Below are positions 23,542-58,717 of a stretch of DNA of 64,000 bases, piece after piece; positions within the stretch are counted from its first letter, which is position 1; each line of letters opens with the position of its first letter. The translations under genes were made by a program, and so were the position numbers. This DNA is from Thozetella sp. PMI_491 (taxonomy: Eukaryota; Ascomycota; Sordariomycetes; Chaetosphaeriales; Chaetosphaeriaceae), in assembly GCA_021432635.1 (NCBI GenBank), contig MU270079.1, forward strand, positions 124,001-188,000. The letters run 5' to 3'. The notes under the pieces were generated by a model that was not told the DNA's origin, searched no databases, and saw nothing but the letters and a program-made list of their open reading frames with translations.

Positions 23542-25464
23542 TTAAAGCGGGTAGCGGAAGGACTTGTTCTCCTTATCCGTAAGGTCCTCGAGGCCGTGCT
23601 CGATGGTGGGCACGCCATACTTAGCGTCTCGCCGCGTGTTTTTCTTCTGCAGGAGGAAGCGCACACCCTGAGACAAAAAGAAGCACAGCGCGAAGCAGAC
23701 CATGATGCCCGTGAAGCTCTCGTTGTATCGCGGGCCGAATTTCCTATGCACCCTGGCGTCAGCAACTACAGTTACGACCAACACCGAGAGACTTACGCAT
23801 CGAAGAGAAGAGAGCCCATGATGTTGCCCAGCGAGTAACCGATGAAAGTTCCCGCGGCGTACACCGTCTTCTTGGTGTAGCCAGCCGTGTTGGACGTCCC
23901 CAGACCGATGCACTCTATACATGACCCAGTGTTAGTAATCTCCTAGAATGGATGTTACTGTAGCTACCCGGAGCATGTGTATCAAGAGCAGGCCCCCAAA
24001 TGCTCCCGATATTCGACGAAAATGGCAAAAAGGAGCATGGGGGAGACGTACGAACCCAAGCAGACGAGAAAAAGTTCAGCATATAAAAACCAAAGATTCT
24101 CCCGCCAGGCTTGTCGTTGCCGAGCTGCCACCTATAGGGCATCATCAATATTTTAGCAGAGTGGCGGGAGCGCAGCTTTCAGACTTACACCAAACAGCAG
24201 CCGAAGATTACAGGGAGGCAGGACAGCGAGATGATGTGGAACCTCGAATTGTTCCAGTGGCGCGCCAGGTAGCCGGACCCGAGAATGCACACAAAGGCCA
24301 TGAACCCGGTCGGTAGGTTCAGCAGCAGAGAAGTGTAGGCATCGAAGCCCATGCCGCTGAAGACGATCGAGGCGAACTGGGTGGCAGTGCTCGACCCCGT
24401 GCAGGACAGCATGGACAGAAGCATTATCCCCCAGAACTGGTACTCGAGCAGAGCCTCCTTTATCTGGTAGAAGCGCACGTACTTGTTTTCAGTCCCCGCG
24501 TTGTTAACCCGGACGCGCTCCACCAGCAGGCGACGCTCCTCCTCGGAGAAGCCGCGGGCGCGCTGCGGCGAGTCGGGGAAGATCCAGAGCAGCGCGATGC
24601 CCCAGAGGAACGAAATGGACCCGGCGAAGTAGTACATGATCTGCCATGGGCGCACATGGGAGCTCTGGATGTGGGCCAGGCCATAGTTGATCAGCGGCGA
24701 GACGAGGAGAGACCCTCCCGAGAAGCTGTACCAGATGCTCGACCGCAGCACCTGCTCGTCGTGGGTGTACCACAGGCCCACGATGAGCATGAACACAGGG
24801 CTGACGCCGGCCTCGACGATGCCGAGGAAGAAGCGGTTGACTAGGATGCCGGCGTAGCTGTGGCAGGATGGCGTCGTGAGCACGATGACGGCCCACACGA
24901 TGGTCAGGGTCGAGCACACGCGTCGCGGGTGGAAGCGCTGGGCGAGCAGCGAGCAGGGGTACATGCCGACGATGTGGCCAAAGTAGAAGATCAATGACAC
25001 CCAGGAATAGGAGTAGCCCTGGGTCAGACCCAGGTCTGTCCGCAGGCCGAAGACGGCGGCTTGACCGAGTAAGCCTTTGTCGTAGTACTGCAGCCGCCTG
25101 TTAGTCACTCACATCAGAAGCACATACGGGTTTGAAGGCCGAGCAAGAGTGTGGCGTCATCGCCTGCCCACGGCACCCTAGTCAGGTCTAGGGCGGCGAT
25201 GGCAGCTCTTGGGTGCAATAGGAGCTTACCTGGATGGCATAGGTAAAGCACAGCTGAGGAGTCCATGTTAGTGGCCGTCCCAGGCAGAGCGATGGTGAGG
25301 GATAGGGGAGCTAAACATACAACGGGCATCAGCCGCCAGTCGATCTTGCGCAGCAGCCTCCGGTTTGTCGCTGGGTCGATGGCCACGGGCTCGAAATGCG
25401 TGGCCACATCCTCGTCGCTCTTCTCGCCCACCTTCTCGGGCGGGGGGGTTGATGTCGCCTCCAT
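23542..25464 (-). CDS. MFS transporter, allantoate permease / anion:cation symporter family (488 aa)
   Basis: Six exons (25464-25321, 25253-25230, 25087-24189, 24131-24052, 23914-23797, 23743-23542) splice in frame to 488 residues, close to the usual length of 480-520. Hallmarks of the Dal5-like family are present: a charged N-terminus with RRLLRKIDWRLMPV, then TYAIQYYDK leading into helix 1-2, FFLGIVEAGVSP, the YTHDEQVLRSSIWYS loop, FPDSPQRARGFSEEERRL, NIMGSLLF and RYNESFTGIMVC. About 12 helices are expected at the plasma membrane. Family members import allantoate, nicotinate, biotin-like or related organic anions. Exon 2 is only 24 bp (LCFTYAIQ) and is needed to complete the first helix. 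The gene is intact. Confidence 0.9.
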
Positions 25465-26170: not shown

Positions 26171-27349
26171 TCACAGGGTCACCACCGCCTTCTGGGCCGA
26201 GAGCCCCTTCCGATAAAGATCCACGGCCGCCTGGATGCTCTCGAGCCCCTTCCCCACCACCAGCGGGTCCGGTGCCGGCACAAATGCGCCCGAACGGAGC
26301 GCCTTGGGCAAAAAGTCTTCAAACACGGCCTTCGCGACGTGGCTGTCCCGCGTGGCGAGGGCTTGCGTCTGCATGATGGTAATGCCCTCCGGAGGGTCTG
26401 GGAACCGCGGGATGGTCGTGACGATGAACTTGACGCCGTCGGTCTTCTGGAGGAACTCGAAGCAGGGCGCCCACGCCTGGCCCCCGACGCAATCGAGGAC
26501 GCCTACCAAGGTCTTCCCCTGGGCGGCTGCCACGAGGTCCGCTGCCACCGTGGGGCTGTTGTAGTCGAAGACGACGCTGGCGCCGAGCTGCTTCACGCGC
26601 GCAAAGTTCTTGGGCGATGCCGTCGTGAGGACTTCGTAGCCCGCCGCTACAGCCAGCTGGATGGCGTTGCAGCCGACGCTCGACGCGCCGCCCCACACGA
26701 GCACCGTCTTTCCGTTGGGCGCCCGCGCGGGCTCGGTCGGCACGTCGAGGTGGAGCATCTGCGGGTTGAAGAGTCCAGAGGCGGCGGTGGCACAGCAGAG
26801 CGGGAGCACGGCCGCGGCCTCGAATGAGATGCCGTTCGGGATATCGCTCGTCAGGTCCGTCTCGAGGACCGTGTAGGCTTGAAACCCTCTCTCCTGGTTC
26901 TGTTTGGTTACGAAGCCGGCCGCGACGCCGGCCACGCGGTCGCCCTCCCGGAAGCGCGTTACACCGGGCCCGACGGCCACCACCTCGCCGGCCACATCTT
27001 CGCCAAGAATGACGGGATATTGCATCGGGTAGATGGCCAGGGCCTGGAGCTTGAAGTTGATGGGATTGATGGCCAGGGCGTGGTTCTTAACGAGGATCTG
27101 GTTCTCCCCCGGCGTGCCCATTGGTGCGGCCTTCACCTCGAAGGGGTAGGCCTTCTCCGAGGGGAGCCAAGCAGCGGTATTTGAGGCCATTCTTGACAAG
27201 TTTCTGATGGAAGGGGTCGAAAGAAATGAGTTCTTTGGTCGTACTGGGGGTACAGAAGTGGAAAAGGCTGTCAGGCCGTCTGATGCACGGCGAGTCTGGC
27301 GAGGAAGTGTGCTGAGGAAGCTCTTGAGAGAAGGCATTGATGTTGACAT
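26171..27349 (-). CDS. Medium-chain zinc-type dehydrogenase / trans-enoyl-reductase-like (392 aa, or 339 aa from an internal ATG)
   Basis: Intron-free. From the internal Met (27190) the protein has the standard MDR layout: GroES-like domain with LVKNHALAINPINFKLQA, YPVILGEDVAGEVVAVGPG and REGDRVAG, then a Rossmann domain with TVLVWGGASSVGCNAIQLA and TTASPKNFARVKQLGA. This is the quinone-reductase / ToxD-LovC-like group that lacks the structural zinc cysteines. These enzymes reduce C=C bonds with NADPH, and several work in trans with HR-PKSs. In-frame ATGs upstream (27349, 27334) add 48-53 residues rich in Ser, Arg and Leu with almost no acidic residues, which resembles a mitochondrial presequence. 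Which start is used is uncertain. It is read divergently from the regulator at 28340. Confidence 0.88.
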   Translation of the reverse strand: MSTSMPSLKSFLSTLPRQTRRASDGLTAFSTSVPPVRPKNSFLSTPSIRNLSRMASNTAAWLPSEKAYPFEVKAAPMGTPGENQILVKNHALAINPINFKLQALAIYPMQYPVILGEDVAGEVVAVGPGVTRFREGDRVAGVAAGFVTKQNQERGFQAYTVLETDLTSDIPNGISFEAAAVLPLCCATAASGLFNPQMLHLDVPTEPARAPNGKTVLVWGGASSVGCNAIQLAVAAGYEVLTTASPKNFARVKQLGASVVFDYNSPTVAADLVAAAQGKTLVGVLDCVGGQAWAPCFEFLQKTDGVKFIVTTIPRFPDPPEGITIMQTQALATRDSHVAKAVFEDFLPKALRSGAFVPAPDPLVVGKGLESIQAAVDLYRKGLSAQKAVVTL

Positions 27350-28339: not shown

Positions 28340-30285
28340 ATGGTGTACCACGGTCCGTCACGGGCGTGCCATTCGTGCAGGTATAGAAGGAGAAAGGTCT
28401 GTAAACCCAGCCCCCGCCCTTTCCCCCTCCGTGGCTGGCCAACAAGCGGGTTGTTCTTCCTCCTATTCGGCATAGACCTATCTTAATAGTGGTGCTGACA
28501 TGGGGACCGGCTGATATAGTGCGATGAGACCCGTCCAGTACGTGGATTCCCACCCTTGAAACATTGCACTAGCGCATAGCGTATATCCTACCGAGGATGC
28601 TTGCGCATAGAGCGTTGTAGAGTCGTGCCCTGCTAACCTCCCCTCCCTAACCAGTCATGCATGAGATGCGTCCGGGCAAGACGCGCCTGTGGTGGCTACG
28701 GAGATGTCGTCCATGGCTTTACCAAAGTGCCCGATACAGACATTGCCCCGTGGTCGCCCCGCGATCTAACCCCGCGGAAATGCAGCCTGCCGCGCCGGAC
28801 CACCATTCCCGGCACTAACATTGTTCCGCAAGACACTATCCCGATAGAGATGACCCAGGCCCAGAGCAATCTTCTGGCGCTAAGGGCCTTCTTCTACGGG
28901 TATTGCTTAACTTCGGCCAACCAAAACCTCTCTCGCGACTTTCTCCCCGGCCTCGAGATGGCCATCTATCGCCTCGGCCCGGGGTCGGACCTAGCGAAGG
29001 CCTGCCAGGCAGTCGAGTTTGCGAGTGGTGGCCGCTATCTGCACAGACCACAGCTTATTCTCAAGGCTGAGAGCTTCCACCAAGAACTTGTCGGGTCTCT
29101 GGGCCGATTGCTGGGGCGCAACGACGTGAAAAGGGGGCCGGAATCTACCTTGGTGTCGATGTTGCTAGGACTTGGCCAGGTATCTCCCCGCTCTCCCCCG
29201 CCCCGTCCCCCCCCCTTTGTTATTACAATAGCCACTCCTTGGCTTGAAGGCTTATTTGATAATGTAGATGGTAACAGCTAGCGAAGTTCATCACGGAAAT
29301 CACGATATCCATGCCAGAGGCTTAGCCGCACTCATGAAGATCGCCCCCGGCTCGTCTAGTTTGCCAGGCCAGACGTCAATCCCTGATACGATACACCACT
29401 TCATCAAGGTACGGCCACCAAAAAGACCTTATTATTGGCCATTTAAATGCTGATTGCACCGCAAGACATCTGGAGTCTTCTCAGTCCCTGCTCTGGATGG
29501 CCAGGATGGAAACTTGATGGGCCTGTTGCTTGACCTCCACGGCCTATGGACGAGATCTGGGGCGAGATACGAGTCCGAAGACGCGTGCTCACTCCTCGAA
29601 GATTGTGCTGCTCTCGATAAAAGGTTCAAAAAGTGGCAGAAAACTCGGGCAACGGAGGTCAAGCCCACTGCGTTGGGCCATCTCACTCCGCGCGGATCCG
29701 CATCTGCTGTCCCGGCAGGGTGCTGGCCCGGACGGGTTGATACCTACTTCGACCTCTATCTCGCTGGTGCCTGGAATGTCTTCCGTACTGCTCGCCTGCT
29801 ACTTATTACCCTCATGATCGGCCTGTCAGATGCTAGCGGTGGCGATTCCTGGGCTAGCTATCACGTCCTCCTGGGTCAAATCGTCGACGACATAGTTGCA
29901 TCGATTCCATACCACCTCGCGGAGAGCTTGCCCTCATTTATGAGCGAATACTCTGCAGGAGAAGACGCAATAAGTCCTGGTCGAGCACTTGGGGGTTGGC
30001 TTTTGATGCATCCCTTATATCTCGCGTCAAGCCTACCGTCGCTGCCGGAGGACATTCGCGGGTATATGAAGGGATGCCTAACCTGGATGGGATCGAATAT
30101 GGGTATCGGCCAGGCAGCTCTTCTGGGGAAAGTGAGTCAAGCCATTTCCGCTTTATCTGTGATGCAATTGACTGCTGGCTAACGCATGGCTATTGCCAGA
30201 CCCCGATTATCGATAGCAGCTACCTCGCAACCGGGTGGATAGTGATTTGGTCAGGATTCAGTGGCAAAATATGCTAGCTATATGA
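28340..30285 (+). CDS. Zn2Cys6 transcription factor with split zinc cluster (about 491 aa)
   Basis: Six exons: 28340-28396, 28520-28537, 28655-29179, 29268-29408, 29466-30131, 30217-30285. The zinc cluster is built from three exons: MVYHGPSRACHSCRYRRRK, CDETRP (an 18-bp microexon) and SCMRCVRARRACGGYG, giving C-x2-C-x6-C-x6-C-x2-C-x6-C. All joins are phase 0 with GT-AG ends. The rest is the helical Fungal_trans_2-type domain, including RGLAALMKIAPGSSS and MGSNMGIGQAALLGK. The last exon is uncertain: an acceptor at 30199 would instead give a tail ending at 30277; the chosen one gives DLVRIQWQNMLAI, the usual ending in this group. The start MVYHGxxxxC is typical. It is divergent from the enoyl-reductase-like gene and upstream of DUF1996. 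Confidence 0.8.
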
Positions 30286-30935
30286 CACATGAGGCCAATC
30301 TAGCTCTCGATACCAAATCACTGGGACTGTCGCACGAGTTGTTTAGAAGACAAGACGTCAACGCGCTCCTCTGCTCAGGCCAGAAGGCCACGATGAAGCA
30401 AGAAGCCAGGAGCTCCTTAAGACACAACTCGGCAACATACAGAGCCTCCGTCGGCGATCATTTTACTCGCCGAAGGTTTGGGACTAGGGACCCTATTGGG
30501 TGAGAGAACACCCAGGGCTGGCGAGGCCGCGCTTGGCGATGCAAGGCCCGGGTTAATGGAATTCATCCGCACGATCGAGATTGCGTATCAGGACAACCAA
30601 TATCAGCGCCCCGCACAATTGGATGACGAGCCGTGCCGCGCAGGGCCGACGAACCACGGCTGTTATTGAACAGCATACAGTATGGACGCATCGAGTGGCC
30701 TACGGTTCTCGAACGCAGCCCAGGCGGCCGGTAATTGCTGTCGTGGTGCGGCGGTGCTTGTCGAAGGCGGATGGAAGTGCCATGGCCTGCAGGGCAATTT
30801 GGGACATTGATTAGCATCCCGTAAGGTACCCTATAAAGACATAAAACAACCGCCCCTGGTCTCTTGACTATCCTTTCTCGAATGCTCGCAATATCGATAA
30901 TTGGCCTCACCGTACCCTCCCAACCCCTGTCCAAG
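30286..30935. other. Intergenic, no gene seen
   Basis: About 650 bp: 3' flank of the regulator and promoter of the DUF1996 gene, both plus strand. No supported frame. Confidence 0.5.
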
Positions 30936-32280
30936 ATGAAGTACGCAGCTCAGTTGCTGGCCCTCGGGCTCCTCCCAGGGGCGCTCGCGCAGTCGCAGGA
31001 CCCGCCATTTACACCTCCTGAGGGCTGCTGTGCCACGGCAGCGATGCTGCGTTTCTCGTGCTCGCAGCTTGTGATCGAGCGCATCGACCCCCTGGTGTCG
31101 CCCGGCATGGTCGGGTCGCCGCATAACCACCAGATCGTCGGCGGGAACTCGTTCAACGCCACCATGACACCCGTTGAGTACGATCCTTCGCAGCAGTCGA
31201 CCTGCACAAGCTGCACTTTTAGCGAGGACTTCTCTAATTATTGGACCGCCAACCTCTACTTCCGGGCGCGCAACGGCACCTTCAAGCGCGTGCCGCAGAT
31301 GGTCAACCTCGGCCTCGAGGGCAACGCCGGCATTACCGTCTACTATATCCCGCCGTATGACGGCAAGACGAATGTAACTGCGTTCAAGCCTGTGAGTAGC
31401 GGCATCATAACCGCACGTCTTTCCTTTCCCTCGACTCAGGACTGATGAACGCATAGGGTTTCCGCATGTTGGTCGGCGACGCTTCCCTGCGCGTGGCGGC
31501 CGGACAGCAGAAGCAGATCTGCCATCGATGCTACAGCAACATCGAGCAAAATCCCTTCGGCGGTGCGCCCTGCACGGGCAACGATACGACCTCGCTGCCG
31601 TCAAAGCCCTGCGCAGGCGGCATCCGGTCGACGGTGACGTTCCCTACGTGAGAATTCCGTGCTCACCATCACTTTCGTTGCTTGGGCGGTAGGCTGACCA
31701 ACCCTCCCTCCAGCTGCTGGGACGGCAAGAATGTAGACAGCCCAGATCACAAGAGCCACGTAGCTTACCCGAAGACTGGGACGTTCGAATCAACGGGCAC
31801 CTGCCCCGACAGCCATCCGGTCCGGCTGCCTCAGCTGATGTACGAGATTATGTGGGACACTCGCCAGTTCAACAACCCCGACGACTGGCCGACGGACGGT
31901 TCGCAGCCACTTGTCTACAGTATGGGTGACCAGTAAGTCTTACTATTGCGATCTTCTCTCCCAACCTCCGAGGCCAAAAGGGCTGATGTCTCGATCACAG
32001 AACCGGCCACGGCCAGCATGGCGACTATCTCTTTGGATGGAAGGGCGACTCGTTGCAGCGCGCCCTGGACGCCCGGTGCACTGGAAACTCGTGCAAGGAG
32101 CTCAAGTCGCAGAGTGCCAAGGATGCCGTGGCCTGCACCAAGCAGCAGGTGGTTGTCGAAGACGTAGAAGGATGTAAGCTGACCACCGATCACAACTAAC
32201 CGATTCGCGAGACGTGGATATCTAACTGCCTCCTCTTAGGGATTCCCACGCTGCCCGGCGGCATGCCGATCATGGATTAA
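30936..32280 (+). CDS. Secreted DUF1996 protein (359 aa)
   Basis: Five exons (30936-31391, 31457-31647, 31714-31932, 32001-32173, 32240-32280) join in frame. [20 protein letters not shown] is a clear signal peptide. The DUF1996 domain follows almost to the end, with [77 protein letters not shown] and [13 protein letters not shown]. The conserved His/Asp-rich motifs (SPHNHQ, CPDSHPV) are intact. Members are secreted fungal proteins, some reported as extracellular or wall-associated; their biochemical role is not settled. The protein is cysteine-rich and ends shortly after the domain. Introns are 65-68 bp. No damage is seen. Confidence 0.9.
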
Positions 32281-32894: not shown

Positions 32895-33662
32895 TCAAAC
32901 GGTCTCAGTGCCCAGGTTGATCAAGACGCCCGAGTCGCCCCGGCGCGGCTTCGTGGCCCGGAAGAGGAGCGTCAGGCCGATGACCCAGGTCTCGACGTCC
33001 TCGAAGTCGCGGCGCAGGGCCTCCTCGAAGTCCTCGCGCCGGTCGTCCCAGTTGTTGAAGACGCCCCACCACTTGTTGTACCACCGGAGGTAGAAGCGGC
33101 TCAGTGGGCCGGTGGCGTGCGCGGGCCCTAGCACGGTGCAGCCGCTCAGCACGCCGTGGTCGCTCAGTGCGTCTCGGAGCGTGGAGATGGCCGCCAGCTT
33201 GGCGGGGCCACCCGGCATGCAGTGGAACAGGTTGAAGGCCGAGATGGAGTCGAACTTGGCGTCCTGCAGCTCCTTGGGCAGCGGCTCCGTCACGTCGGCC
33301 AGCACCGTCTCCACGGTCGTCTTTGTCGTCACCGACAGCACGCGCGCTTTGGTCGCGTTGAGCGGGTTCGGGTTGATGTCGACCAGCGTCAGCTCCTGCT
33401 TGCTGTCCTTGCGGAACGGCTGCGCCAGCGCGGCCGCGGGGAAGTAGCCCGTGGCCACACCGATGTCGAGGTGCCGCCGGCTGAAGTTCTCGGCGAAGAA
33501 GGGGAGCAAGATGGTGGTGGCCGGGCAGCCCCAGATGTACTTCATGTTGAAGCCCAGGACGTAGTAGTCGTAGAAGATGGAGAGGAAGGACCGGCTGTAG
33601 ACGGTGGCGTACGTCTTGTCCGGCCCCTTGCCATTGCCGTTGCTGTGGTCTTGTTCGGCCAT
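32895..33662 (-). CDS. Class I SAM-dependent methyltransferase (255 aa)
   Basis: Intron-free, 255 residues. The SAM-binding motif I is HLDIGVATGYFPAA, motif II TLVDINPNPL, and the post-motif region KFDSISAFNLFHCMPGG corresponds to motif IV/V. The stretch PLSRFYLRWYNKWWGVFNNWDDRRED is tryptophan-rich. The family contains many small fungal methyltransferases, some inside polyketide clusters, that act on O or C of small molecules; the substrate is unknown. It lies in tandem with the LaeA-like gene (1.2 kb downstream of that gene's stop) and about 6 kb from the PKS start, so a role in tailoring the PKS product is plausible. Start ATG at 33662 is the first in frame. Confidence 0.85.
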   Translation of the reverse strand: MAEQDHSNGNGKGPDKTYATVYSRSFLSIFYDYYVLGFNMKYIWGCPATTILLPFFAENFSRRHLDIGVATGYFPAAALAQPFRKDSKQELTLVDINPNPLNATKARVLSVTTKTTVETVLADVTEPLPKELQDAKFDSISAFNLFHCMPGGPAKLAAISTLRDALSDHGVLSGCTVLGPAHATGPLSRFYLRWYNKWWGVFNNWDDRREDFEEALRRDFEDVETWVIGLTLLFRATKPRRGDSGVLINLGTETV

Positions 33663-34862
33663 GGCGGCGATGATGGACGAGCTGGTTGACAGCCCGGCGC
33701 TCCGCTGGAAAAGGATTTTGTTGAAAGACCGTCTTCCTCGGCAGAGATGGCGAGGGCAAGGGCGAGCGAGACGGCGGGAACGGCGACTACGGAGACGACG
33801 GAGACGACGGCGGCACAGCTAAGAGCTCCTCAAGGTACCTGCCAGCGGGGATCTCGACCTAGACCGCGAATAAGCATCGGCAAAGGTCCATCACGCAGAC
33901 CCCGAGCTTATCATTGCTGCCTCAATGCCTGGCAATGGGAGCATGGAATGGGGTGGTGGGTTGAGTACCATTGCAGCTATCAAAGTAGTATAGATCTGCA
34001 CAGTTGAGGGGTTAGACGGGGAGCGTAGGAGTCCATCGGCTGAGGGCAGCACGGCGGACTTGTCCCTTCTCGGAGCACATGGAGGGCACGTTGTGGGTTT
34101 ATTTTGGGGCGATGCAGCGCGTCCAGATGTGGCAGTATCCTTCGTTGTAGCGCCAGCCCCCCTCATGTACCCGAAGGTAGTTGTGTACTTTGGCTGGCAG
34201 CTTGCAATTCTGATTGGATTCCGGGACGTTGGACATTGGTGGATAAGAAGGGCCGGTGTGCATGGAAAACCGGGGTCCTGGCACGCCCAGGTGGGGGAAA
34301 GGGGGGGAGGGGGGGGGAGGGGCTGATGCGGTGTTGTACAACTCATCCTGCCTCTGAACCGCATGCAATGCCATTCTACTGCATGGCACATGCAGCCCCT
34401 AGCGCGAACTGGCCCTCAGCTGATACTGGACGGGCAGGCAACTTGCTCTCGCCACCACCGCGGAAGCTTGCCTTTCCTCGCCTTGCTATTTTTGCTGGCG
34501 AGTTTCTGTCCTGCCAATAGTGTGCTCTCGGCAATTCCCTCGCCCGCCCGGCAGGCAGGCAGGCACCACGGCGAATGGCGCGTGGCGAACAGCTTGCCCT
34601 AGATACGTGCTCGCGCGGCGAGTGGCTCGTTCTCGCGCGAGGACATCATGCCTTGTCTGCTGCCGCATTGTCATCGCGTCAAGCCGCAGGCGGGCCGGGT
34701 ACCGCTCCAGGTCCCGTCATGTGGACCGACGAAGACGACGCTGATCCCGACATGGATGCCGTAGAGGACCCGTCCTTGGGCTTGCGGCCGTAAACCGTCA
34801 ATCTTTGATTCTCGCGTTAGTGGACCCGCCCCCTCGAGCCGAACAGCGACAAGGAAAGGGCC
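33663..34862. other. Intergenic, GC-rich, with purine run
   Basis: About 1.2 kb between two minus-strand methyltransferase genes. It includes a G-rich purine run at about 34290-34323. The frames seen are compositional artefacts of GC-rich DNA; no gene is supported. Confidence 0.5.
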
Positions 34863-36699
34863 TTACAGTGTCATGTACGAGTGGTAGTGCGTGTCCCCTA
34901 TCTCGCTCTTCACCTCGGCCAGCAGCTCATGCGTCCGGTCCGGGGTCCAGCCCAATGCGCTCGTGAAGACGGGAATCGTGAGGGGCTCGATGATGGCCAG
35001 CCAATTGTCCGTCATCATGGCACCAACCCGCTGCAGACTCTTGCCCGGGTAGCAGGCGTTCGTCGGGGCGGCATTCTTGGTCACCACTATCCTCTCGAAC
35101 CCGCCCTTCTCGAGCAGCGACTTGTAGTGCCTGACGTAGCGGACCGAGCTGCCAAGCCTGCGTAGGCCGGTGTGCAAGAGGCGGTTCCATTTGTGAAACG
35201 CGCTGCCCTGGAACGTGTGGTTGGGCGACTCTAGCCGCACGATCCACTCGGTGAACTCCACCCAGCCGCCCGGGTTCAGATTGTCGTAGATGGACTGTAT
35301 CAGCTCCACCTTCTTGGGTATGTCACCAAGCATGCGCACGTGGATGAAGTCGAACTTGGTCTCGAGCTCCCAAGGCTCTGTGGCATCCATCGTCATGAAG
35401 CGACAGTTGCGCTCCTTGTAGGGCGGCCGCACTGGCTCGATATCGACCCCGAGCACGGCCGTTCCCGGGTTCTTCTGGGCTAGGATCTAAAGTTAGAATG
35501 CCTGCGAGCCCGAGACACAGGAATGCCTTACCATATTCCTGAAGCCTTAGTTAGCAACGAGGCAGGTTGTGGGACAGAGCAAGGACGGGTGAGACTTACT
35601 AAGGCCCAGAGGCCGGGGCCTGTGCCGACATCGAGCACCCTCCTCGCCCTGGTGACCGGGGCGAGGTGGAGCCTGCCCTCGAAGATCTCGGATATAATGT
35701 TGTGCTGAAGCTCGTTTCTGTTTTGCTCCTCCTGTAGGAAGAGAAAGTAAGCCCCCGCCTAGGCACATGCCCGATGGCTCGCCGGACATACCTTCGTGTT
35801 GGGGATCGAGCCATAACCTGCGCATGCATTAGCCAGGGTGTCTCGTGCGGGCTGGGGGAGGGGCCGGGGGGAGGTGGATGTGTACTCACGCTTGTATGTT
35901 ATGCCGAACTTCTTCATCAATGACCGGAAGAAACGGCCAGAAGACGAGCCTGCCGGCTTGGTACCGCTCCTGCATTGGCCATGGCGTGTGAGTAGAGTGT
36001 TCGGGTGTCGCACTGCACCACCGTACGCGAAAGCTGCGCCAAGACGAGCTACCACGGAGGAGAGCAGCGGGCAGGATGGAACGGAAAGAGGGAAGCTTAC
36101 CGCTTAGGCGGAGGCACGGGGGCCTTCGCCGTCCCATCTTCGTCTGAGCTATCGGATTCCGTCTTGGGCCAGTAGTTGCCCGAGTCGGATGCCGTGCTGG
36201 ATCGATCGTCCTCGTCCGCCTTCTGTTTCCTCGCCCCTCAAAGTCAGCTGTCAAACACGCAGGAGTGTGTGGGTTCGGGTTTGGGGGCTTGGCCGGGCCT
36301 GCATGCCGCCAGCGTGCAGCCGGCTATCGCGGGGGGGCCGTTTGCTGCAGTTGGACGCACCTCTTGATGGGTCAAGAGGATCTGGTGGTCCCAGGCTTCG
36401 GAGCGCCTGCGCGATGACGACGACGGCCGTCCGCTCTCGCTGGAGTTATGGGTGCGGGGCAGCTCCGAGGTCGAAGAGGCGGTGAGCAGCGACGCAGCGG
36501 CCGACGACGAGGTCCTAATCGTCGCACTGGAGCTCCCGGGAGCGCGCATCCCCAGCGGGAGGTCGGTGATGTGCGATGCGACCCCGCCTGCACCGCTCGC
36601 CGCTCCTCTGTCGAAAGGGGGCACTTGGCCGCTGTGTTGGTGTTGCCCGTGGCCAGTGGCAGCGACGCGCTTGCCGCCGCTGCGTTTTGGGGGATCCAT
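34863..36699 (-). CDS. LaeA-like (UMTA-type) SAM-dependent methyltransferase (440 aa)
   Basis: Six exons (36699-36361, 36222-36101, 35969-35890, 35817-35792, 35731-35600, 35486-34863) give 440 residues. The N-terminal 175 residues are Ser/Arg-rich and disordered, with an acidic TESDSSDEDG patch. The LaeA-like core follows: RYGSIPNTKEEQNRNELQHN, LHLAPVTRARRVLDVGTGPG (motif I), LGVDIEPVRPP (motif II) and FDFIHVRMLGDI. Family members include the global secondary-metabolism regulator LaeA and cluster-located paralogues. This one is divergent from the PKS across 3 kb, so it is a candidate cluster regulator or tailoring enzyme. Exon 4 is a 26-bp microexon; skipping it would shift the frame. The usual YxxPND motif of LaeA proper is replaced by YGSIPNTK. 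Confidence 0.85.
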
Positions 36700-37231
36700 G
36701 CAGGGAGTGCCTGGAGGAGCAAACCAACAGCGCGGAGCCCAGCCAAAAACACGTCTCCTCCCCTATTTTTTTCGGCCCGCTCCGAGCCCACGGGAAGCCG
36801 GTAAGTGTGAGCGATACCGAGCTGGCTTTGTGTGTCGTCCTTTGTGGAAACTATCGCCGTCGGGCTCTTTCATGCCTGGGATTCCCGGTCCAGACGATGT
36901 GGATAAAGGTTTCTGAGAGGCGGATGTTTTTTTCGGGAAGGAATCTGTCGCTTCCGGCGTCTCCCCTTTTTCTTTTTTTCCTCCCCTGTGTCCCTCCCTC
37001 TGTGCTTGCGCCTCCCGCAAGCTGCCGACGGCACTGGCTGGCCACGGAAAACCATCCGCCCCCTGCTGGGAAAAAACACCGAGGCCCCCTGGTCGATATC
37101 ACCATTAGGTAAAGGTTAGCACTCATCCCACTAGGCCAGCCAGGGTGATCGATCTACATGTTCCTCCGGCGTCGCTCGCGCTCCCTTTCCGCCCAGCCAG
37201 CGACTTGCGTGCGAGGTTGTGAGGGGACGAG

Positions 37232-37234
<3 letters not shown>

Positions 37235-37266
<32 letters not shown>
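37235..37266. repeat. Homopolymer of 32 G
   Basis: An uninterrupted G32 tract preceded by GGGAG. It is a potential G-quadruplex site and a likely source of read dropout. Confidence 0.95.
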
Positions 37267-37267
<1 letters not shown>

Positions 37268-38542
37268 GCCGGCCGGGGCAATCGCCGCTTGCTACCCACG
37301 CCGGGGGGCAGGGGTCCCAGACCCGCGATGGCTCCACGTTTGCGCGGGACCCCCACCCCAAGGCAAAGCTTGACAACAACGGACGCTATCGGCCGCAGCG
37401 CTTGGCCGGCATTTCTGTATGTAAAACGGGACGAGAACCCAGTCGTGAGCCAGCGGCCTAGCCTGGTTGCCTGGGTCAGGGGAGTTGGCTTCGCGCTGCT
37501 GCAGCGTTCCGCGGCCCGCGGGAGTCGATGTCACACGCCCACGGCAGGATTGCGAGCGACACCTTCTGTCACAACACGGCAGGGTTGGGTGCTGTTCATG
37601 GGTGATGGGTGAGGAAGAAGAGGGGGGGAAGAAAAGTGACAGATAAGTCGAGACAGAGGCGAGAGTGGCAGGCTCGCGCGCGTCCTCGCTAGCCCCCCGC
37701 TTTCCCGGAGTTGATATCTTTCCGGACTTGCAACTTTTTTTTTTTTTGGTGGCATTGGTCCCAGTTTCGTCCCACTCGTGTGACCGGTTTGGGACTGTCG
37801 AAGTCTGGGACTAGCGAAGCAGACAGCGCGTCCAGGATTTTCAGTGGCCACGCCCAGTGAGCCCTAGGAGCTTAGCTTCAACGGCAGCCATTAGCTTGCT
37901 GATCGCATCGGGCTGAAGCTAGTCCGGAACCACCTGCCAAGGCTCCCGCTCGTGTAGTGGAGATGTTTTGGCGGGAAACTGGCGGGAAAACGGCCGGGGG
38001 CTAGGGCGCGGTCCGCAATCCGCACGGACAGAAGAGGAGACTTCCGCACCTGCCAAGGCAGGCTGGCAGACAAGCAGGTTCGCGAGCTAAGCTAGGGAGG
38101 CTTGCTTGGTCTGCTGGGTTTCCCTGGCTTCTCGCGTTTGCTGGGTTACTTAATTACCTTGGATTAGCCTCTCACCGCACGGTCGCCTCAGTGGTCGAAA
38201 GGGTAGATCCGAGGCGCACGTCGTGCTTGCAGTCCAGATATGCAGTGGTCTATCTGGGAGGCTTGCCGCACGTGTTTTTTTTTGTATCTCGGGGTTTTTT
38301 GACGTCTGTATTTAATTAGAGCCGCCGGCATACCATATCGGGAGCAGGTAATCTCGGAGAGTAACCCGTCAGAGCCTCCGTCACCTGATCCTCCCGTGAC
38401 GCTCGCCAAATTTGCGAAAATGTCCCGTGGCTAATTCCGACTGCCGAGCGACCCTGCTGAGCCACTCGGGCGCCTTCCTCGGATACTGTGGTGCTCTGGT
38501 GGTGTGTCTCTTCGCAGGGGCCACACACCATCCTCGTCTTTT

Positions 38543-38847
38543 NNNNNNNNNNNNNNNNNNNNNNNNNNNNNNNNNNNNNNNNNNNNNNNNNNNNNNNNNN
38601 NNNNNNNNNNNNNNNNNNNNNNNNNNNNNNNNNNNNNNNNNNNNNNNNNNNNNNNNNNNNNNNNNNNNNNNNNNNNNNNNNNNNNNNNNNNNNNNNNNNN
38701 NNNNNNNNNNNNNNNNNNNNNNNNNNNNNNNNNNNNNNNNNNNNNNNNNNNNNNNNNNNNNNNNNNNNNNNNNNNNNNNNNNNNNNNNNNNNNNNNNNNN
38801 NNNNNNNNNNNNNNNNNNNNNNNNNNNNNNNNNNNNNNNNNNNNNNN
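38543..38847. other. Assembly gap (305 N)
   Basis: Unresolved bases, followed immediately by a C run (38848-38855). Missing sequence is likely another GC-rich simple repeat; no gene on either side runs into it. Confidence 0.98.
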
Positions 38848-39747
38848 CCCCCCCCTCCTCGGCAGATCTTGGCGCCTCCTCCACCCCCATCCCCTCCTTA
38901 ATTCAACCACTCAAACCCGGTGAGTTCCGCAGGGAGGAACTACAGCCTAGGCAGAGTTCGGCTGTTACCGCTTGGCTTGCCGTGCTTGCACACCCGGCCG
39001 ATTGTCACTCAGTACCAAGCAGTACATGGGTCCCAAGTCCATGCACGCGGCCACAGAACCACCGCTCGTCCTCTAGTTCCCCCGGCCCGCACACGGCCTT
39101 GCACTCGGGGCATCGCGTAGCCTAATACACAACCAACTGCATCAAACCCCCCGGCCAGCCATGCATGCGCCGGCGGCCAGAAGCAAGGGGCTCTAGATCG
39201 TACTTCGACTAGTAGCTATGGCGCACTGCAGAGCATGCCAACTTGGGCGGCCGTCGTTGGCGCAGGGCAGCAGTCGGCAGTACGATGTGCTGTCCTGACT
39301 CCCACATTCCCCTCCTCGGTTCGTTCAACTCGTGAGCCGTTGAGGGCCGTACGATGGGGCCTGGCCAATGGCGGGCCATCTGTCTGTTGTGTCCTGCCCA
39401 TCCATCGACCAAGGAACTAAGAGCCACGCATGGTATCGATATGGCTCCCCGCGAGGCGATGGTGCTGGGATCATCGTTCCTCCCCTCTCCTCTCTCCCCT
39501 CTCCCCGCTGCTGGGCATATGCGAGATAGGAACCGGATGGGAGGGTGTGGAGAGCAGGATTAGAGGCCATACATGTAGCCGCATTCAGGGTCTCCTGTTC
39601 TCCAGAATGAAAGACCCATCGTAGGCGCTTCACTCGGAGTCTTGGTTCTCCCCCCCAAGCTTCGCTATCGTAGTTCAACACTGCATCCCATCTTCCTCCC
39701 CCCCCTCAACGAGGTCTCTGGGGAGCATCTCAGTCCGTTCCAGCACC

Positions 39748-42700
39748 ATGGACGAGCCAATTGCCATCGTCGGCCTGGACGCCCGCCTTCCGGGAGACGG
39801 AGACACGGCCGAACGCTTCTATGAGTCCCTCCTCGCTGGGCGCTCCGCCAGGGGGCCAATTCCGTCCGAGAGATACAATGTAGATGCCTTCTGGCACCCA
39901 GACGGGGAGAGAGGCGGCGCAGTATGCTCTATCCTCGCATGAAAATGGTTGGAATAGGGAGATCCGGCAGCTGACTCTGACTTTGGCAAGACCCGAGCGA
40001 AATATGCCCACTTCCTCAGGGGGAGTGTTGCTGCCTTCGATGCCCCCTTCTTCTCCATCACGCCTGCTGAGGCGAGCAACATGGATCCCCAGCAGCGGGG
40101 GATGCTGGAGTCGGTTTACAAGGCGCTGGAGAATGGTATGTGGCTTTGTTTACTTTCGGGGTCTGCCGTGCTGACTTGGACAAAGCCGGAATTCCTCTGG
40201 CTGCCGCCGCCGGCTCGCAGACTGGTGTCTATGTCGGCTGTTTCTCCTCTGACTACCACGACATCACCATCAAGGACCTTGACATCCCGTCCAAGTACGC
40301 AGCCACCGGTACCGTGGCCAGCATGCTTAGCAACCGTGTTTCGTGGTTCTTTGACTTTCGCGGACCCAGCGTCACCATCGATACGGCCTGCTCCAGCAGT
40401 CTTGTTGCTGCCCACGAAGCGTGCATGAGCCTCAAGCTCCGAGAAGTGTCCATGGTAGGTCTAATTCCATACTAGCCGGCTAATGCCCATTGCTAATGGC
40501 TGGCTCACAGGCTATCGTCGGAGGCTGCAACCTCATGCTGAGCCCCGAGATGACTCTCAACCTCGACTCGGCCGGCGTCCTCGGGCCGGATGGCAAGTCC
40601 TACAGCTTCGACCACCGCGGTAATGGATACGCCCGCGGCGAAGGTTTCGGCGTGCTCGTCCTGAAGCGCGTATCCGACGCCATCCGCGACGGCGACGTGA
40701 TCCGAGCCGTCATCCGGAACTCATCCACCAATTCAGATGGCAGGTCGCCAGGCATAACACAACCGACCAAGCGGGCCCAAGCGGCGCTCATCAAGCATGT
40801 CTACGCCAAGGCAGGGCTGGACCCTTCGGTAACGCGGTTTTTTGAAGCACACGGCACCGGCACGGCGATCGGTGATCCGATCGAAGCGAGCGCTATTGCC
40901 GAGATGTTTGCCTCGCACCGGTCTCCCGAAGAGCCTCTGTACGTCGGTGCTCTGAAGAGCAACGTCGGACACCTGGAGGGTGCCGCCGGTGTGGCTGGGC
41001 TCATCAAGGGAGTGTTTACCCTCGAGTCCGGCATCATCCCCCCGAACATCTGGTTTGAGAAGCGGAACCCCAAGATTGAGGATTCGTGGAACCTAAAGTT
41101 CCCCACAGAGGCCACCGCGTGGCCGCAGTCGGGGGTGCGACGCATGTCGATCAACTCGTTCGGCGTCGGCGGTAGCAACGCCCACGTAGTGATGGACGAT
41201 GCCTTCCACTTCCTGCAGACGCACCGTCTAGTCGGTAACCATCGCACCGAGGCTGTCCCGGCGAGGGCAAAGCTGCTGAAGTTCCTCCCAGCCGGCGGTG
41301 CGCCGTCAACAAATGGGACCTCGACTCCCACTGAGGGCTCGGTCACCAACAGCTCTTGGCTTACCAATGGGTCGCATAGCCCTCCTACCAATGGCACAAG
41401 TACCCCTGCTTCATCTACGAACGGCGTATTGGCGACAAATGGCAAGTTCAGAGTCTATAACGGCAAAGCGCTGTCACTAACTAAACTAGGCATCGAAAGC
41501 CGTGATCTCCAGCCCAATGGGACTGGTGTGGAGAGCAGCGAGACGGAAAGCGACCAGTCTCCTACTTCCCCCACTCAGCTCTTCGTTCTTTCCTCGTACG
41601 ACCAAGAAGGCGTCACTCGTGTACGAGATGCCTATGCGACGTATATTGACTCCAAGGACGCGACATGCGAGTCGCAGTTCCTAAGCGACCTAGCCTACAC
41701 ACTGGGACCAAAGAGGACTCACCACTCATGGCGCTCGTTTGTTCTTGCACACTCTCACTCCTCCCTCCGGGCCGCCCTTACACAGATGCCTAAACCGGTC
41801 CGTATAAGGTCGGATCCGCGGCTGGCATTCGTCTTCACTGGACAAGGCGCACAATGGCCCGCCATGGGTATGGAGTTGATGGCACTGCCCGCCTTCCAGC
41901 AGAGCCTCCTCGCGGCGGACAACTATCTCAACGAGCTTGGCTCTCCGTGGACTTTGACTTGTAAGTGACGCCAACTCCATGCCCTCGTATTAAACAACTA
42001 TCCTGACCACATTGTTCAGATGAGCTTTCCAAGGGTGCGGACAACTCCCGCGTGAACGACCCTGAATTCAGCCAGCCCCTATGCACAGCTCTCCAGGTAG
42101 CCCTGGTTGATCTCCTTGCCACATGGAACATCCGTCCGCTTGCTGTAACCGGACACTCCTCCGGTGAGGTCGCGGCCGCGTACGCGGCTGGTGCCATCTC
42201 CAGAGAGGCCGCGTGGAAAGTGTCGTACTATCGCGGGAAGCTTAGTGCCAAACTTTCGCGAGCAGAGAGCAAACCCACATCGGGTATGGCAGCTGTCGGC
42301 CTCAACCTCGAAGAGACTAGGGCGGCTATCGATCGAATAAATGCTCTTGAGGGCGACGGTAGCCTAGAGATTGCCTGCTACAACAGCTGGAATAGCTACA
42401 CAATTAGCGGCGACATCAAGAAGATCGAGACTCTGGCCGAGACTCTCACGGAAGAGAAAAAGTTCGCACGCAAGCTCAACGTGCAGCTTGCCTACCACTC
42501 CCAGTACATGAAGGCTATTGCCGATGAATACCTTGCGGCCATGGGAGAGCTCGAGCATGGAGCTGCTGTGGGCGGCGCGGATGCAGGCCCGGCATTCTTC
42601 TCATCCACAGTCGGTGGCCTTGTCTCTCTCGACCGGCTCCGTGACCCGGCTTACTGGGTTGAGAATCTGGTGTCGCCAGTGCGCTTCTGCGACTCTGTGA

Positions 42701-45700
42701 CCGCGCTCGTCAAGGGGTCTCAGAAGGCAACTGACCGCTTCCTTGCAAGCGCCCCAACCAACGTCACCGATATACTTGAGCTTGGGCCTCACAGCGCTTT
42801 GAAAGGACCTCTGACCAACATCACCAAGGTTGCGGGCAAGAGCGATATTCAGTACCACTCCGCAATTATCCGCAAGCGCTCGGCTATCGAGACTATACTC
42901 GAGACAGCGGGATCGCTCTACTCGAGTGGCTTTAACGTCGATCTTGGTGCTGTGAACCAAGCGTCTGGTGTCTCCCCCAAGCCGCTACTCCTCACCGATC
43001 TCCCTGGCTATGCATTCAACCACTCCAAGGAGTATTGGATCGAGGGCAAACCTAGCCGAGACTTCCGCCTCCGGCCAGCACCGCGTCATGAGCTGCTCGG
43101 CGCCCCAGTGAACGACTGGAACCGGGATAATGCTGTTTGGCGCAACTATATTCGTCTCTCCGAGAACCCATGGATTGAGGACCACAAGGTGGCAGGGGAG
43201 ATCTTGTACCCTGCCGCTGGGATGCTAGTCATGGCGGTCGAGGCCAGCCGCCAACTTGCCGACAGCGAAAAAGTCCTAAAGGGGTTCAAGTTTAGGGATG
43301 TTTCGTTCCACGCGGCACTGCGCGTGCCCGAAGATACCCTCGGCGTCGAGTCACATTTCTACCTGCAGCCGTCAGCGCAGCCCCAATGGAGCGAGTTCCG
43401 GGTGAGCACGTTCCAGGAAGGGGAGTGGATAGAGCACTGTCGGGGCTTGGTCCAGACAGAATACGAATCGGACAGCCAGTCTGGTGAGCAAAGCCTGGAG
43501 GACCAGCTGGTGAAAGAAGGCTCCGACCGGTCCATCAAGCGTGCACAGGAGATCTGTAGCCGGAAGGTTGTGACAGAGAAGCTCTACCAGAACTTCAAGC
43601 AGTCGGGACTCAACTTTGGACCGACATTCCAGAGCTTGAGCGACGTACGGCTCGGTCCAGACCTGCAAATATTTGGGCAGGTGGATTCTACTGTCCCTAA
43701 GATCAAGAAGGCGATGCCTTACGAGTACATCATGCCTCATCTTGTCCACCCGGCCATGTTGGACGGGGTTGTCCATGCCAATCTTGTTCCGCTGGTGCTC
43801 GGACCCGGAGGCGCAACAGAAGCCCGAGTTCCAGTGTTCGCCCGCGACCTTTGGATATCAGCTAGCCCTCACACCGCCCACGATTCCTACTTGGTGACTG
43901 CCCAGCCAAAGGCATGCGGGCGCCAGGAATTCGTGTCATCGGTGACCGCTGTCGAGGCTTCTTCAGGCCGGCCGATGGTCTACGCCTCGGACCTTGTATT
44001 CAAGACCCTCCCTGGCTCGCAAGTGGCGCAGAGCGCCGATCATAAGAATTCCTATAACATTGAGTGGCAGCCGGATCCCACCTTGCTGACCGCCGAGCAA
44101 GCCGCGTCGGTCTTCGCGCTGCCGATGACGGCAGCGGATGACCCAGCCAGCTGGATGGACGACTGCGAGACTCTGTGCCTTGCTTACATTCGTCGCTTCC
44201 TCGCCTCCGTTCAGGACGGTATCTCTAGTGTTGACAAGATGGACTGGCACCACAAACGCTACATTTCGTGGTTCCAGCACACCGTGGGCAACTCACCCTC
44301 GGCTTCGACACCCACCGATGCAGAAATAGCGGAGATTGAGCAGAGGGTAGCCAATGGCGGCAGTCCAGAGGGTGTTTTGATTACTGCGGTCGGTCGTGCT
44401 TTGCCTGACATGCTCGGCGGCCCGCTCGATCCGCTTGAGGTGGTCTTCAAGGACGAAATCGCCAAGAATGTGTATAGTGACGGACTCGGCGCAAAGCGGT
44501 GCTACGCACAGCTGTGCGCATATGTAGATGCTCTGGCGCACAAGAACCCTGCCCTCCAGATCCTCGAGATTGGTGCCGGCACGGGTGGCGCTACCCGTCC
44601 GGTCGTCGAGACGCTGACGCGTAAGGGACGTCGGTATGCACACTACGAATTCACCGACATCTCTCCGTCTTTCTTCGAGGAGGCACGGGAGACCTTCTCC
44701 GGAGAGCTCAGCTTCATGAACTTCCGCGTCCTGAACGTTGAGAACGACCCGTCAGACCAGGGCTTTGAAGAGGCCAAGTATGATCTCGTCATCGCTGCCA
44801 ATGTTCTCCACGCGACCAAGAATATTGATGTATCGCTGTCTCACGCCAGAAAGCTCCTAAAGCCTGGCGGGAAGATCCTGCTGTACGAGATCACGAACTT
44901 AGAGAAACTGCTCAGCACCTTCTGTTTCGGTGTGCTGCCCGGCTGGTGGCTGTCTGAGGACAAGGACCGCGTGTGGGGTCCCCTGATGACCCCGGAGAGC
45001 TGGAGGAGCCATCTGACGTTCTCCGGCTTTGGTGGTCTGGATGGTGTTTTCCATGACTTCCCCGGTTCGCCTGGCCAGATGACATCGATTATGGTGTCGA
45101 CCGTCCCGAAGCCGAACGCACTGGGCGAAATTAAGACGATATACATTCTCACGGATGAGTCCTCCCCATTCCAGAGCGACGTTGCCGCGAAGCTTGTCGA
45201 TGCGCTCGGCAAGAACGTCAAAGCGGAAGCTCTCCCTTTCACATCGATTGGAGAAAAAGAACTGTCGGAAGCCACAGTGATCGTGGTACCAGAGCTCGAA
45301 GCACCGGTTCTCCAGAAAATGACTGAAGATTCGTTCCGATCTCTCCAGAGCATCGTGACCAAGTCGAAATCACTCCTATGGCTCACTCGTGGAGGAAATG
45401 CTGCCTCCCCATCCCCTGACGTGGAACTGGTAACTGGCCTGGCGCGGGCTGCTCGTCTTGAGCGGGCTGAGGGTTTCAAATTCGGGTCCGTGGCCTTTGA
45501 GCAAGAGGCCGCAGCCGAGCTTATCTCCCATAGTGCTGTTCAAGCTCTGGCTGCTGTCCAAGAGGGCTCCGACAACTCGTTCAGAGTGGTGAATGGGCTT
45601 TTCTATATCTCCCGGTTGGTCAAGGCAGACTATCTCAGTGCGCACATTCGCAGTCAGACCTCAGTCCTCAGTGCGGTGCAGATGACCCTTGAGGAGACGT

Positions 45701-47938
45701 CTGATCGACGTCTAGAACTTCAAGTCGGCACGGCAGGGCAGCTTGACGATCTTGCGTTCGCTGAGGATGCACTGGCTGAAGTGGCGTTGGCGGATGACGA
45801 GATTGAGTTCGAAACTAAGGCGACAGGTCTCAGTGTCCGCGATCTTGCCTTTGCCCTCGGAAAGGCCGATGAGGCACCCCTTGGCTTCGAGGCTGCCGGG
45901 GTCGTGACAAACGCCGGGCCTACCTCTAAGTTCGCCGTCGGTGATCGCGTGTTTGGACTCTCGCTTTCAGGAACCCTCAAGACCGTCGTCCGAACACACG
46001 AAGGGCTCGTTGCAAAGATCCCCGGGCCTGTGTCTTTCTCTGAGGCCGCCTCGCTTCCAGTGGCATTCTCTACTGCTCACGCGGTTCTTTACGAATCTGG
46101 GTCCATCAATAAGGGGGACACAGTTCTTATCCATGCCGCTACGAGTGCTGTTGGGCAGGCAGCAGTGCAACTTGCACAGCTCCAAGGTGCTGAAGTCTTT
46201 GTCACAACCCACAGCAGCGAACAACGCGCAGTGCTCGAGACAACTTACGGCATTCCTAGCGATCATATATTCTCCTACCAAGACAGCTCGTTCAAGATCG
46301 GAATTAAGAACCTTACATTGGGCCGTGGCGTCGATGTGGTTCTAGACAACCTATCCGACACACGAGACGCCGCTGCGAGAGACAACTTGGACCTGGTGGC
46401 GCCTTTCGGGCGATACATCCAGATAGGATCTGCTAGCAGCATTCATGCCTCGATCCCCGCTCATGTCCTCGCGCGAAACATCCGCATTGAATCTTTCGAC
46501 CTGCTCTTCAGGGCCACTCACGATCCAGTGCGTACTAGGGCTAGGTTCCAGCGGGCGATGGATGTCCTCGCTCACCCCGATTTCAACCTCCGCCAAATAA
46601 ACCCCGCCGTATATCCCTTCTCGCAGCTCCAAGATGCCCTCCGACAGCTGCAAACTTCAAAGGACGTTGAAAGCGTCATTCTTGAGCCTCGTCTGGACGA
46701 CGTAGTACCCGTCATTCCGAGCCGTGCGCCTGAGACTGAGTTCGACCCAGCCGCGTCTTACGTAGTTGCTGGTGGTTTGGGTGGCCTAGGCCGGTCGATT
46801 GCGCGCTGGATGGCGTCGAGAGGGGCGAAGAATCTCATCCTTCTCTCAAGAAGCGGACCTATCACCGAGGCCGCCAAGGAGCTCATCTCTGAGCTAGAGG
46901 GCAAGAACGTCAAGGTGTCAGCGCCATCGTGCGATGTTACAGATCTTGAGGTTCTTAAGAAGGCTATTTCGGATAGCTTAGAATCTATGCCGCCTATCAA
47001 GGGCTGTGTTCAGGGATCTATGGTGCTCAAGGTAAGCCTGCATGACAGAGCTGGCTTAGTATCGCATACTAAACTGAGATTAGGACAATCGACTAGAAGA
47101 CATGTCAGCAGATGAGTGGAACGCAGCTGTTCGCTCCAAAGTCGACTCCTCATGGAACTTGCACTCAGTGCTTGGCTCTAACCTCGACTTCCTCATCCTA
47201 CTCTCCTCTACTGTCGGCATCACCGGAAACCCTGAACAGTCCAACTACGCCGCAGCTGGAACGTTCCAGGACACGTTAGCACGTCATCTAACTGCACAAG
47301 GCACTAACACGTTCTCGTTCGACCTGCCAGTCATCCTCGGCGTCGGCTTTGTGGCAGAGAAGCCGGAGCTTATGGATTACATGCGGTCCACAGGGTGGGC
47401 ATACATGGAAGAAGCGGAATTCCATGCTACCCTGGACTACCACTGCCGCCCGCGCCGCCAGGACGTCCCGATTTCTCAGTCGCAGGTCATCCCGAGGTTC
47501 TGGCTACCGCAGGAGACCGCGGCGGAGGGGTATACCTTGCCATCGTGGAGGCTCGATCCTCTTTTCAGTCACCTCACGCAGACACAGGGCGCCGCAGCGG
47601 ACGATTCAAAGGCGACAGCTACGAAGGATATCAACCACGCCGCTCTTTTAGTTGCCGCGGCCTCTCCCGAAGAGGCAGAAAAGATTGTGCTTGACGCTGT
47701 GCTCCTCAAGCTATCCCGGGTTTTGAGCGTGGATCTGTCCAACTTGGATCCAGCGAGACCGCTGCACTCATATGGTGTGGACTCGCTTGTGGCGGTCGAC
47801 CTGCGAGCCTGGCTGTCTAAGCAGATGGGAGCTGATGTCTCGGTGTTCGACATGACGAACAAGGGGAGCATATTGCAGCTCGTCAGCACGATTACGGCGA
47901 GGAGCAAGCTAACGCCATTGTTCGGGAAGGAGGCTTGA
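39748..47938 (+). CDS. Highly reducing type I polyketide synthase, KS-AT-DH-MT-ER-KR-ACP (2634 aa)
   Basis: Six exons (39748-39921, 39991-40135, 40186-40454, 40511-41960, 42020-47031, 47084-47938) join in frame. KS (1-410): C175 in DTACSSS, H310 in EAHGTGT, H350 in NVGHLEG. AT (about 632-950): GHSSG with S726. DH (about 1030-1330): H1068 in [10 protein letters not shown] and D1261 in [11 protein letters not shown]-methyltransferase (about 1480-1700): [11 protein letters not shown] near 1529. ER (about 1900-2240): NADPH loop ATSAVGQAA near 2053. KR (about 2257-2470): GGLGGLG at 2264, S2391/2392, Y2405. ACP: DSL with S2584. All catalytic residues are present, so by family knowledge it should make a reduced, alpha-methylated acyl chain. 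There is no TE, reductase or condensation domain. The KS-AT linker is low-complexity. It is divergent from the LaeA-like gene. Confidence 0.96.
41312..41407 (+). repeat. Intragenic low-complexity repeat in the PKS KS-AT linker
   Basis: The linker repeats Asn-Gly-rich units: NGTSTP occurs at 41312-41329 and again at 41390-41407, with [15 protein letters not shown] and SSTNG between and after. The codons of the copies differ, so it is an old repeat under protein-level constraint or simple drift. Confidence 0.7.
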
Positions 47939-58195: not shown

Positions 58196-58717
58196 TATGT
58201 GGTTTCGGCAAACGTTTATTGACCAAAACCCACTCGAAGCAAAAGAAAAGAAGGCTCTCTTTAGGTACACTATTATAACATTGGGATTTGTAGCGTTTTA
58301 ACCTGCAGCCTCTCCCAAAGGTGTCCGGAGGCTGCCTGTGTTAAAAATATACTTGATGGAGCAAAAGTGAAACCATAGTCAACCGACATCATTAACGGAC
58401 AAATACTGGCCACTTTTACCAACTATGTATGTTGCGCAGAGAACCCTCAAATTAGGCCATCCAATAAATGCGAATACTGGCGGGCTAACTAAGGAGAAGA
58501 CATTTTGCCAATGGTCTTGGTCGAGGTTGTGTGGGTACCTACCTAGTGTCTCTCAGAATATGTTCGCTGTATTATGTAAGCTTGCCCCTCGGACTCGTCT
58601 TGCCATGGCCCTGCCATCGGCTTTTAACAATTGCATTGCCCTTTAGCCGCCGCGCCAAATCGCGAGCCCAAGCCTGGCGACGCTCCAAGCTCTCCGAAGC
58701 ACCTCGCACCACCCACC
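58196..58717. other. Intergenic, no gene seen
   Basis: About 520 bp holding the promoter of the F-box/WD gene. No supported frame. Confidence 0.5.

Follow-up and report, generated by a model that had tools for sequence, protein, structure and literature searches.

The stretch of Thozetella sp. PMI_491 DNA analyzed here (the window; 64,000 nucleotides, C65:124001-188000 of a 72.3 Mb assembly) had been proposed to contain the core of a polyketide cluster, consisting of a highly reducing polyketide synthase (HR-PKS) and two free-standing methyltransferases. With respect to its genes, this original prediction was borne out. The PKS is located on the forward strand at 39748-47938, while the reverse strand carries a gene encoding a LaeA-like methyltransferase (~34599-36699) in tandem with a gene encoding a small methyltransferase (32895-33662), which we refer to as MT2. 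Pfam domains, intact motifs, and spliced gene models likewise support a polyketide cluster core. The analysis also uncovered three features beyond those proposed: a degenerate enoyl reductase (ER) domain within the PKS, a Zn2Cys6 regulator, and a LovC-related reductase.

The PKS was modeled using a purpose-written spliced gene predictor, which assigned six exons to the gene (a looser earlier run gave seven). The resulting protein measures 2,645 aa if the first intron is taken as 36 bases and 2,634 aa if it is taken as 69, and neither splice version contains an internal stop. Pfam identified ketosynthase (KS), acyltransferase (AT), dehydratase (DH), C-methyltransferase (C-MT or cMT), zinc-binding ER, ketoreductase (KR), and acyl carrier protein (ACP) domains, in this order, on forward strand open frames, and when combined with the gene models and motifs, the architecture reads KS-AT-DH-cMT-(psiKR)-psiER-KR-ACP. 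The KS, AT, DH, C-MT, KR nucleotide-binding, and ACP motifs are intact (DTACSSS, GHSSG, H1079, and GVDSL among them), and the protein terminates with the ACP, with no release domain behind it. With its KS, AT, DH, KR, and ACP in one protein and their motifs intact, the enzyme is, by its sequence, a fungal highly reducing PKS. A working cis-ER is common among such enzymes without being a defining trait. The best solved relative of its large exon is LovB (7cpx, 1.2e-111). In the KR catalytic motif, the window PKS has Gly at position Y+4, where sister PKSs of the same genome usually have Asn, but since one sister also has Gly there, we read the KR as a normal, working domain. The KS-AT linker (residues 439-568) contains a long low-complexity stretch composed of 45% Ser, Thr, Asn, and Gly.

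The ER domain with its NADPH motif (45718-46686, forward strand) yielded a different picture from that of the KR. We compared both domains with those of eight sister PKSs by leaving out each sister in turn and scoring the columns that did not vary among the remaining seven, while the window PKS was always kept outside of the reference set. From the 63-72 invariant ER columns per set, the window PKS had lost 17-22 vs. 1-10 for the left-out sister. When the same scheme was applied to the KR as a control (15-37 columns), the window PKS had lost 0-4 and the sisters 1-8. In addition, the first Gly of the ER NADPH motif is kept in 19/19 sister stretches and is replaced by Ser in the window PKS. From these losses, the ER domain of the window PKS is probably inactive. 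The earlier description of the synthase as complete therefore holds for the order of its domains, but not for their function, as the ER looks non-functional with both its invariant columns and its NADPH motif Gly lost.

MT2 is a predicted 255 aa, intronless class I S-adenosylmethionine (SAM) methyltransferase, whose open frame matches Methyltransf_12 of Pfam with 37.9 bits. It is the only match to its sequence in the 72 Mb genome at E 0.01, and no sequence relatives of it were found in the PDB. Its AlphaFold model (pLDDT 88.3) has the fold of an ordinary class I methyltransferase. With MT2, tblastn matched 757 bacterial plasmid records, with identities up to 37.0% among the 40 matches listed, and a profile scan of bacterial and archaeal genomes with the MT2 family identified 105 relatives, the best being 43% identical and from Pseudomonas. 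Of these 105, 80 were kept and 47 were used to build the family profile. Among the records listed, the bacterial members are mostly annotated as 'class I SAM-dependent methyltransferase', and the analysis turned up no function for this family in bacteria. From these matches, MT2 is a member of a bacterial-type family. Of the 757 plasmid records, 603 are named Klebsiella, and Erwinia amylovora is also among them. A recombinase-family gene is found near the MT2-family gene in 3/3 bacterial records inspected (L061, L062, and L063). The expectation that the free-standing methyltransferases are distinct from the C-MT of the PKS is supported. For MT2, O-methylation is the most fitting role, and from its sequence it is a probable O-methyltransferase.

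A fungal counterpart of MT2 was suggested by the citreoviridin gene ctvB. In the accessible part of PMC7077241, a length of 228 aa is given for the ctvB product, and one of 233 aa over 702 bp for the counterpart in P. citreonigrum, so by these figures the latter gene is intronless, like MT2. The quantitative PCR primers printed for ctvB in that source were translated and the peptides scored against the MT2-family profile, a comparison confined to these peptides. The reverse-primer peptide SISLMYVL scored 18.8 bits at MT2 residue 139, which was reached by 0/1,500 random peptides and by 0/329,785 8-mers from six-frame translations elsewhere in the same genome. At this site, MT2 itself scores 15.7 bits and the 47 relatives score 11.6-26.7. 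The best placement of the forward-primer peptide CLRKAANR was at MT2 residue 100, which agrees with the primer order and gives a credible spacing, although the score was weak (10.5 bits, reached by a fraction of 0.0147 of random peptides). The SISLMYVL match in particular suggests that CtvB and MT2 probably share one family.

HR-PKSs accompanied by methyltransferases of this type are already on record. According to the available portion of PMC12312803, AurA, CtvA, AstA, and DovA are described as KS-AT-DH-cMT-KR-ACP synthases without an ER, while the alpha-pyrones of AurA, CtvA, and AstA are reportedly O-methylated by AurB, CtvB, and AstB, an activity demonstrated for DovB. As far as these accounts extend, the CtvA/CtvB (citreoviridin), AurA/AurB (aurovertin), AstA/AstB (asteltoxin), and DovA/DovB (deoxyverrucosidin) pairs resemble the window in that a C-MT-bearing HR-PKS without a working ER is found together with an adjacent small class I methyltransferase. 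Judged by its sequence, the window PKS is an HR-PKS of this composition, with a C-MT and probably without a working ER. The window differs from these pairs by its recognizable though degenerate ER domain, by the LaeA-like gene located between the PKS and MT2, and by having no flavin-dependent monooxygenase (FMO) or epoxide hydrolase among the open reading frames (ORFs) scanned. The proposal that the gene combination is unlike any described pathway was thus not upheld, because the pairing of an HR-PKS with a CtvB-type O-methyltransferase has been described (PMC12312803 and PMC7077241, in the parts available). Furthermore, an HR-PKS with two further methyltransferases, the O-methyltransferases Str2 and Str3, is known from the strobilurin cluster stpks1/str2/str3 (PMC6158276, likewise in part). 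The latter cluster shares this gene content with the window, but is from a basidiomycete and has the further oxidative genes str9 and str4. The exact gene set of the window was not found in a literature search of openly licensed papers, mostly at listing level, so its absence there means little.

The LaeA-like gene has eight predicted exons and a modeled product of 458 aa, with a match to Methyltransf_23 on the spliced protein (5.6e-18, 65.6 bits) and a long, Ser-rich, acidic N-terminal part. LaeA itself carries Methyltransf_23, and this domain is what the window gene has in common with LaeA and the LaeA-like (Llm) proteins. The window gene is recognized by this domain and is one of at least 46 LaeA-like genes in the genome (its catalytic exon gave 48 match rows, 46 after collapsing by hand). 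Its predicted start at 36699 is 3.05 kb from that of the PKS, and the divergent region separating the two (36700-39747, 3.05 kb) matches only its own place in the genome. This intergenic region holds a 305-base run of N (38543-38847), which is either an assembly gap or a withheld stretch.

Other genes of the window were also inspected. A Zn2Cys6 transcription factor gene is found on the forward strand at 28340-30216, with an approximate 3' end (PF00172, 30 bits with a cut-off of 21). Its zinc cluster is spread over three exons (CHSCRYRRRKCDETRPSCMRCVRARRAC) separated by introns of 123 and 117 bases and was missed by a single-ORF Pfam scan. Based on its sequence, it is a candidate pathway regulator. 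A major facilitator superfamily transporter gene (23542-25464, reverse strand) is closest to the NCBIfam subfamily TIGR00893 (D-galactonate transporter), although below its cut-off, and its membership in the cluster is uncertain. Between the Zn2Cys6 gene and MT2, Pfam and a gene model place a DUF1996 gene on the forward strand (30882-32280; the 3' end is at 32199 or 32280), which is probably not biosynthetic. Cytochrome P450 and short-chain dehydrogenase/reductase genes are present at 5.8-11 kb and seem too distant for the cluster. Among the 40 scanned ORFs of the window's 69 of at least 150 aa (smaller exons were not included), no thioesterase was seen, and between 20 and 58 kb neither was a hydrolase, an acyltransferase (the AT of the PKS aside), an FMO, or a P450. 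A genome search for PF01494 gave none on C65, with 18 of 321 candidates scored. Farther out, there is a HET-domain ORF (17968-19794), an F-box gene with a pof12 beta-propeller (58628-60670, 549 bits), and a HeLo-domain gene (62985-65834, extending beyond the window; modeled at 827 aa with a central P-loop-like region). The F-box gene has the look of conserved housekeeping and is a plausible outer border of the cluster, while the HeLo-domain gene looks like a fungal NOD-like receptor or incompatibility gene. Elsewhere in the genome, the stretch C1:520001-530000 (L017) contains no N and is a strongly AT-rich block, its GC content being 22.6% vs. 50-58% in the remaining 10 kb stretches retrieved that were also free of N.

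From the above, the locus is probably a working cluster and a member of a described kind rather than of a new kind. Specifically, we put the probability that it is an uncharacterized fungal polyketide cluster of the CtvA/CtvB (AurA/AurB) kind at slightly under one half (~0.48). Several observations weigh against this reading. The ER of the window PKS is also the most divergent overall, having a mean identity of 0.39 vs. 0.42-0.50, and part of the column loss is therefore general divergence; moreover, the reference consisted solely of sister PKSs presumed to be active. On the side of the methyltransferase, the best of 20 stop-free frames from the ctvA, C, D, and E primers was a ctvE frame with 10.4 bits (0.0093 of random peptides), which is on par with CLRKAANR. 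The forward peptide therefore proves nothing alone, and the CtvB link depends in effect on one 8-residue peptide. The FMO and epoxide hydrolase carried by the aur, ctv, and ast clusters were not seen in the scanned ORFs. Apart from these points, the LaeA-like gene does not stand out by its position. The genome contains ~51 KS places (97 match rows collapsed by hand to one per gene, some of which may be fatty acid synthases), and with distances measured start to start, only 1/46 LaeA-like genes, the window's own, is located within 20 kb of such a place vs. 1.21 expected under uniform placement; within 10 kb, it is 1 vs. 0.62. Its adjacency is at chance level, and therefore nearness alone does not support a functional link. 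The genes of the proposed three-gene unit are indeed adjacent, but the LaeA-like gene may be uninvolved or regulatory, and the 'trio' could amount to a pair next to a bystander.

The same counts bear upon two other readings of the LaeA-like gene. In the strobilurin cluster, Str2 and Str3 set a precedent for an HR-PKS with two O-methyltransferases (PMC6158276, in the portion available), and MT2 and the LaeA-like protein could similarly both methylate the polyketide, as their genes are beside the PKS and on one strand. We regard such two-enzyme tailoring as quite improbable, given that the LaeA-like family is large and not enriched near KS places and that the window PKS terminates with an ACP. 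It is equally doubtful that the locus makes an undescribed O-methylated polyketide with the LaeA-like protein co-opted from a regulatory family as a dedicated enzyme or local switch, alongside a methyltransferase whose family passed from bacteria to fungi and, in bacteria, occurs on plasmids and near recombinases. The chance-level adjacency would also suit an orphan PKS among unrelated neighbors, next to which MT2 and the LaeA-like gene are located by coincidence. In agreement with this, the surrounding DUF1996, HET, fasciclin, and F-box genes are not obviously biosynthetic, and the MT2-family genes in the three bacterial records lie near recombinase genes and not near PKS genes. However, an ER-deficient HR-PKS and a probable CtvB-family methyltransferase, the latter a single match in 72 Mb, are 6 kb apart, with a Zn2Cys6 gene in the same stretch. 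Hence, we consider the absence of a cluster to be unlikely, though less so than either role for the LaeA-like protein.

An alternative of similarly low probability concerns the fate of the enoyl reduction. The accessible part of PMC7870829 describes that LovB of the lovastatin pathway carries a psiER, a dead ER served by the separate reductase LovC. The window similarly combines an HR-PKS with a degenerate ER and a medium-chain zinc-type reductase in its neighborhood (26171-27190, reverse strand, 339 aa, identified by Pfam). Among solved structures, the PKS exon is closest to LovB and the reductase to LovC (3b6z, 3.3e-29). If this reductase replaced the dead cis-ER, the chain would be partly reduced and MT2 would be a later tailoring enzyme. 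LovC-fragment reductases are in fact enriched near KS places, with 6/40 (the window's included) within 20 kb vs. 1.05 expected, as counted after the 52 LovC-like rows were reduced by hand through dropping 5 PKS ER rows and 7 second-piece rows. However, the window reductase shares just 36% identity with the LovC fragment and comes sixth among the rows for that query in its own genome, not among the closest relatives of LovC there, as five KS-adjacent reductases are closer (41-68% on matched pieces). The rows most similar to the window reductase itself (58% and 48%) are on C125 and C93, on neither of which a KS was matched, and it is separated from the PKS by 12.6 kb and four predicted genes. 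The reductase remains a weak candidate for a trans-ER partner of the PKS. It could restore enoyl reduction, which counts against the reading of the CtvA/CtvB kind. The five closer reductases (C5:1287834, C8:1092273, C10:950370, C10:727431-728242, and C86:128236) are each ~13 kb or less from another KS, and they are likely trans-ER partners of other PKSs in the genome.

Returning to the cluster of the CtvA/CtvB kind, the chain built by the window PKS would be C-methylated and, as the ER of the enzyme would no longer reduce it, largely unsaturated. Because the ACP is not followed by a release domain, this chain would be released by cyclizing to an alpha-pyrone or as an acid, after which MT2 would O-methylate the ring hydroxyl (or the carboxylate), in the manner of CtvB and DovB. 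The Zn2Cys6 protein would turn the cluster genes on, while the LaeA-like gene would be either a bystander or a regulator. On this reading, the product would be an O-methylated, C-methylated, unsaturated polyketide, perhaps an alpha-pyrone. In place of an unspecific 'novel trio', this offers a testable prediction, namely that a CtvB-type enzyme O-methylates the chain made by an ER-deficient HR-PKS, and it points to the first two genes for expression as well as to the mass shift to be expected. It further suggests that a family of O-methyltransferases with proven function in fungi and a large family in bacteria may be one and the same.

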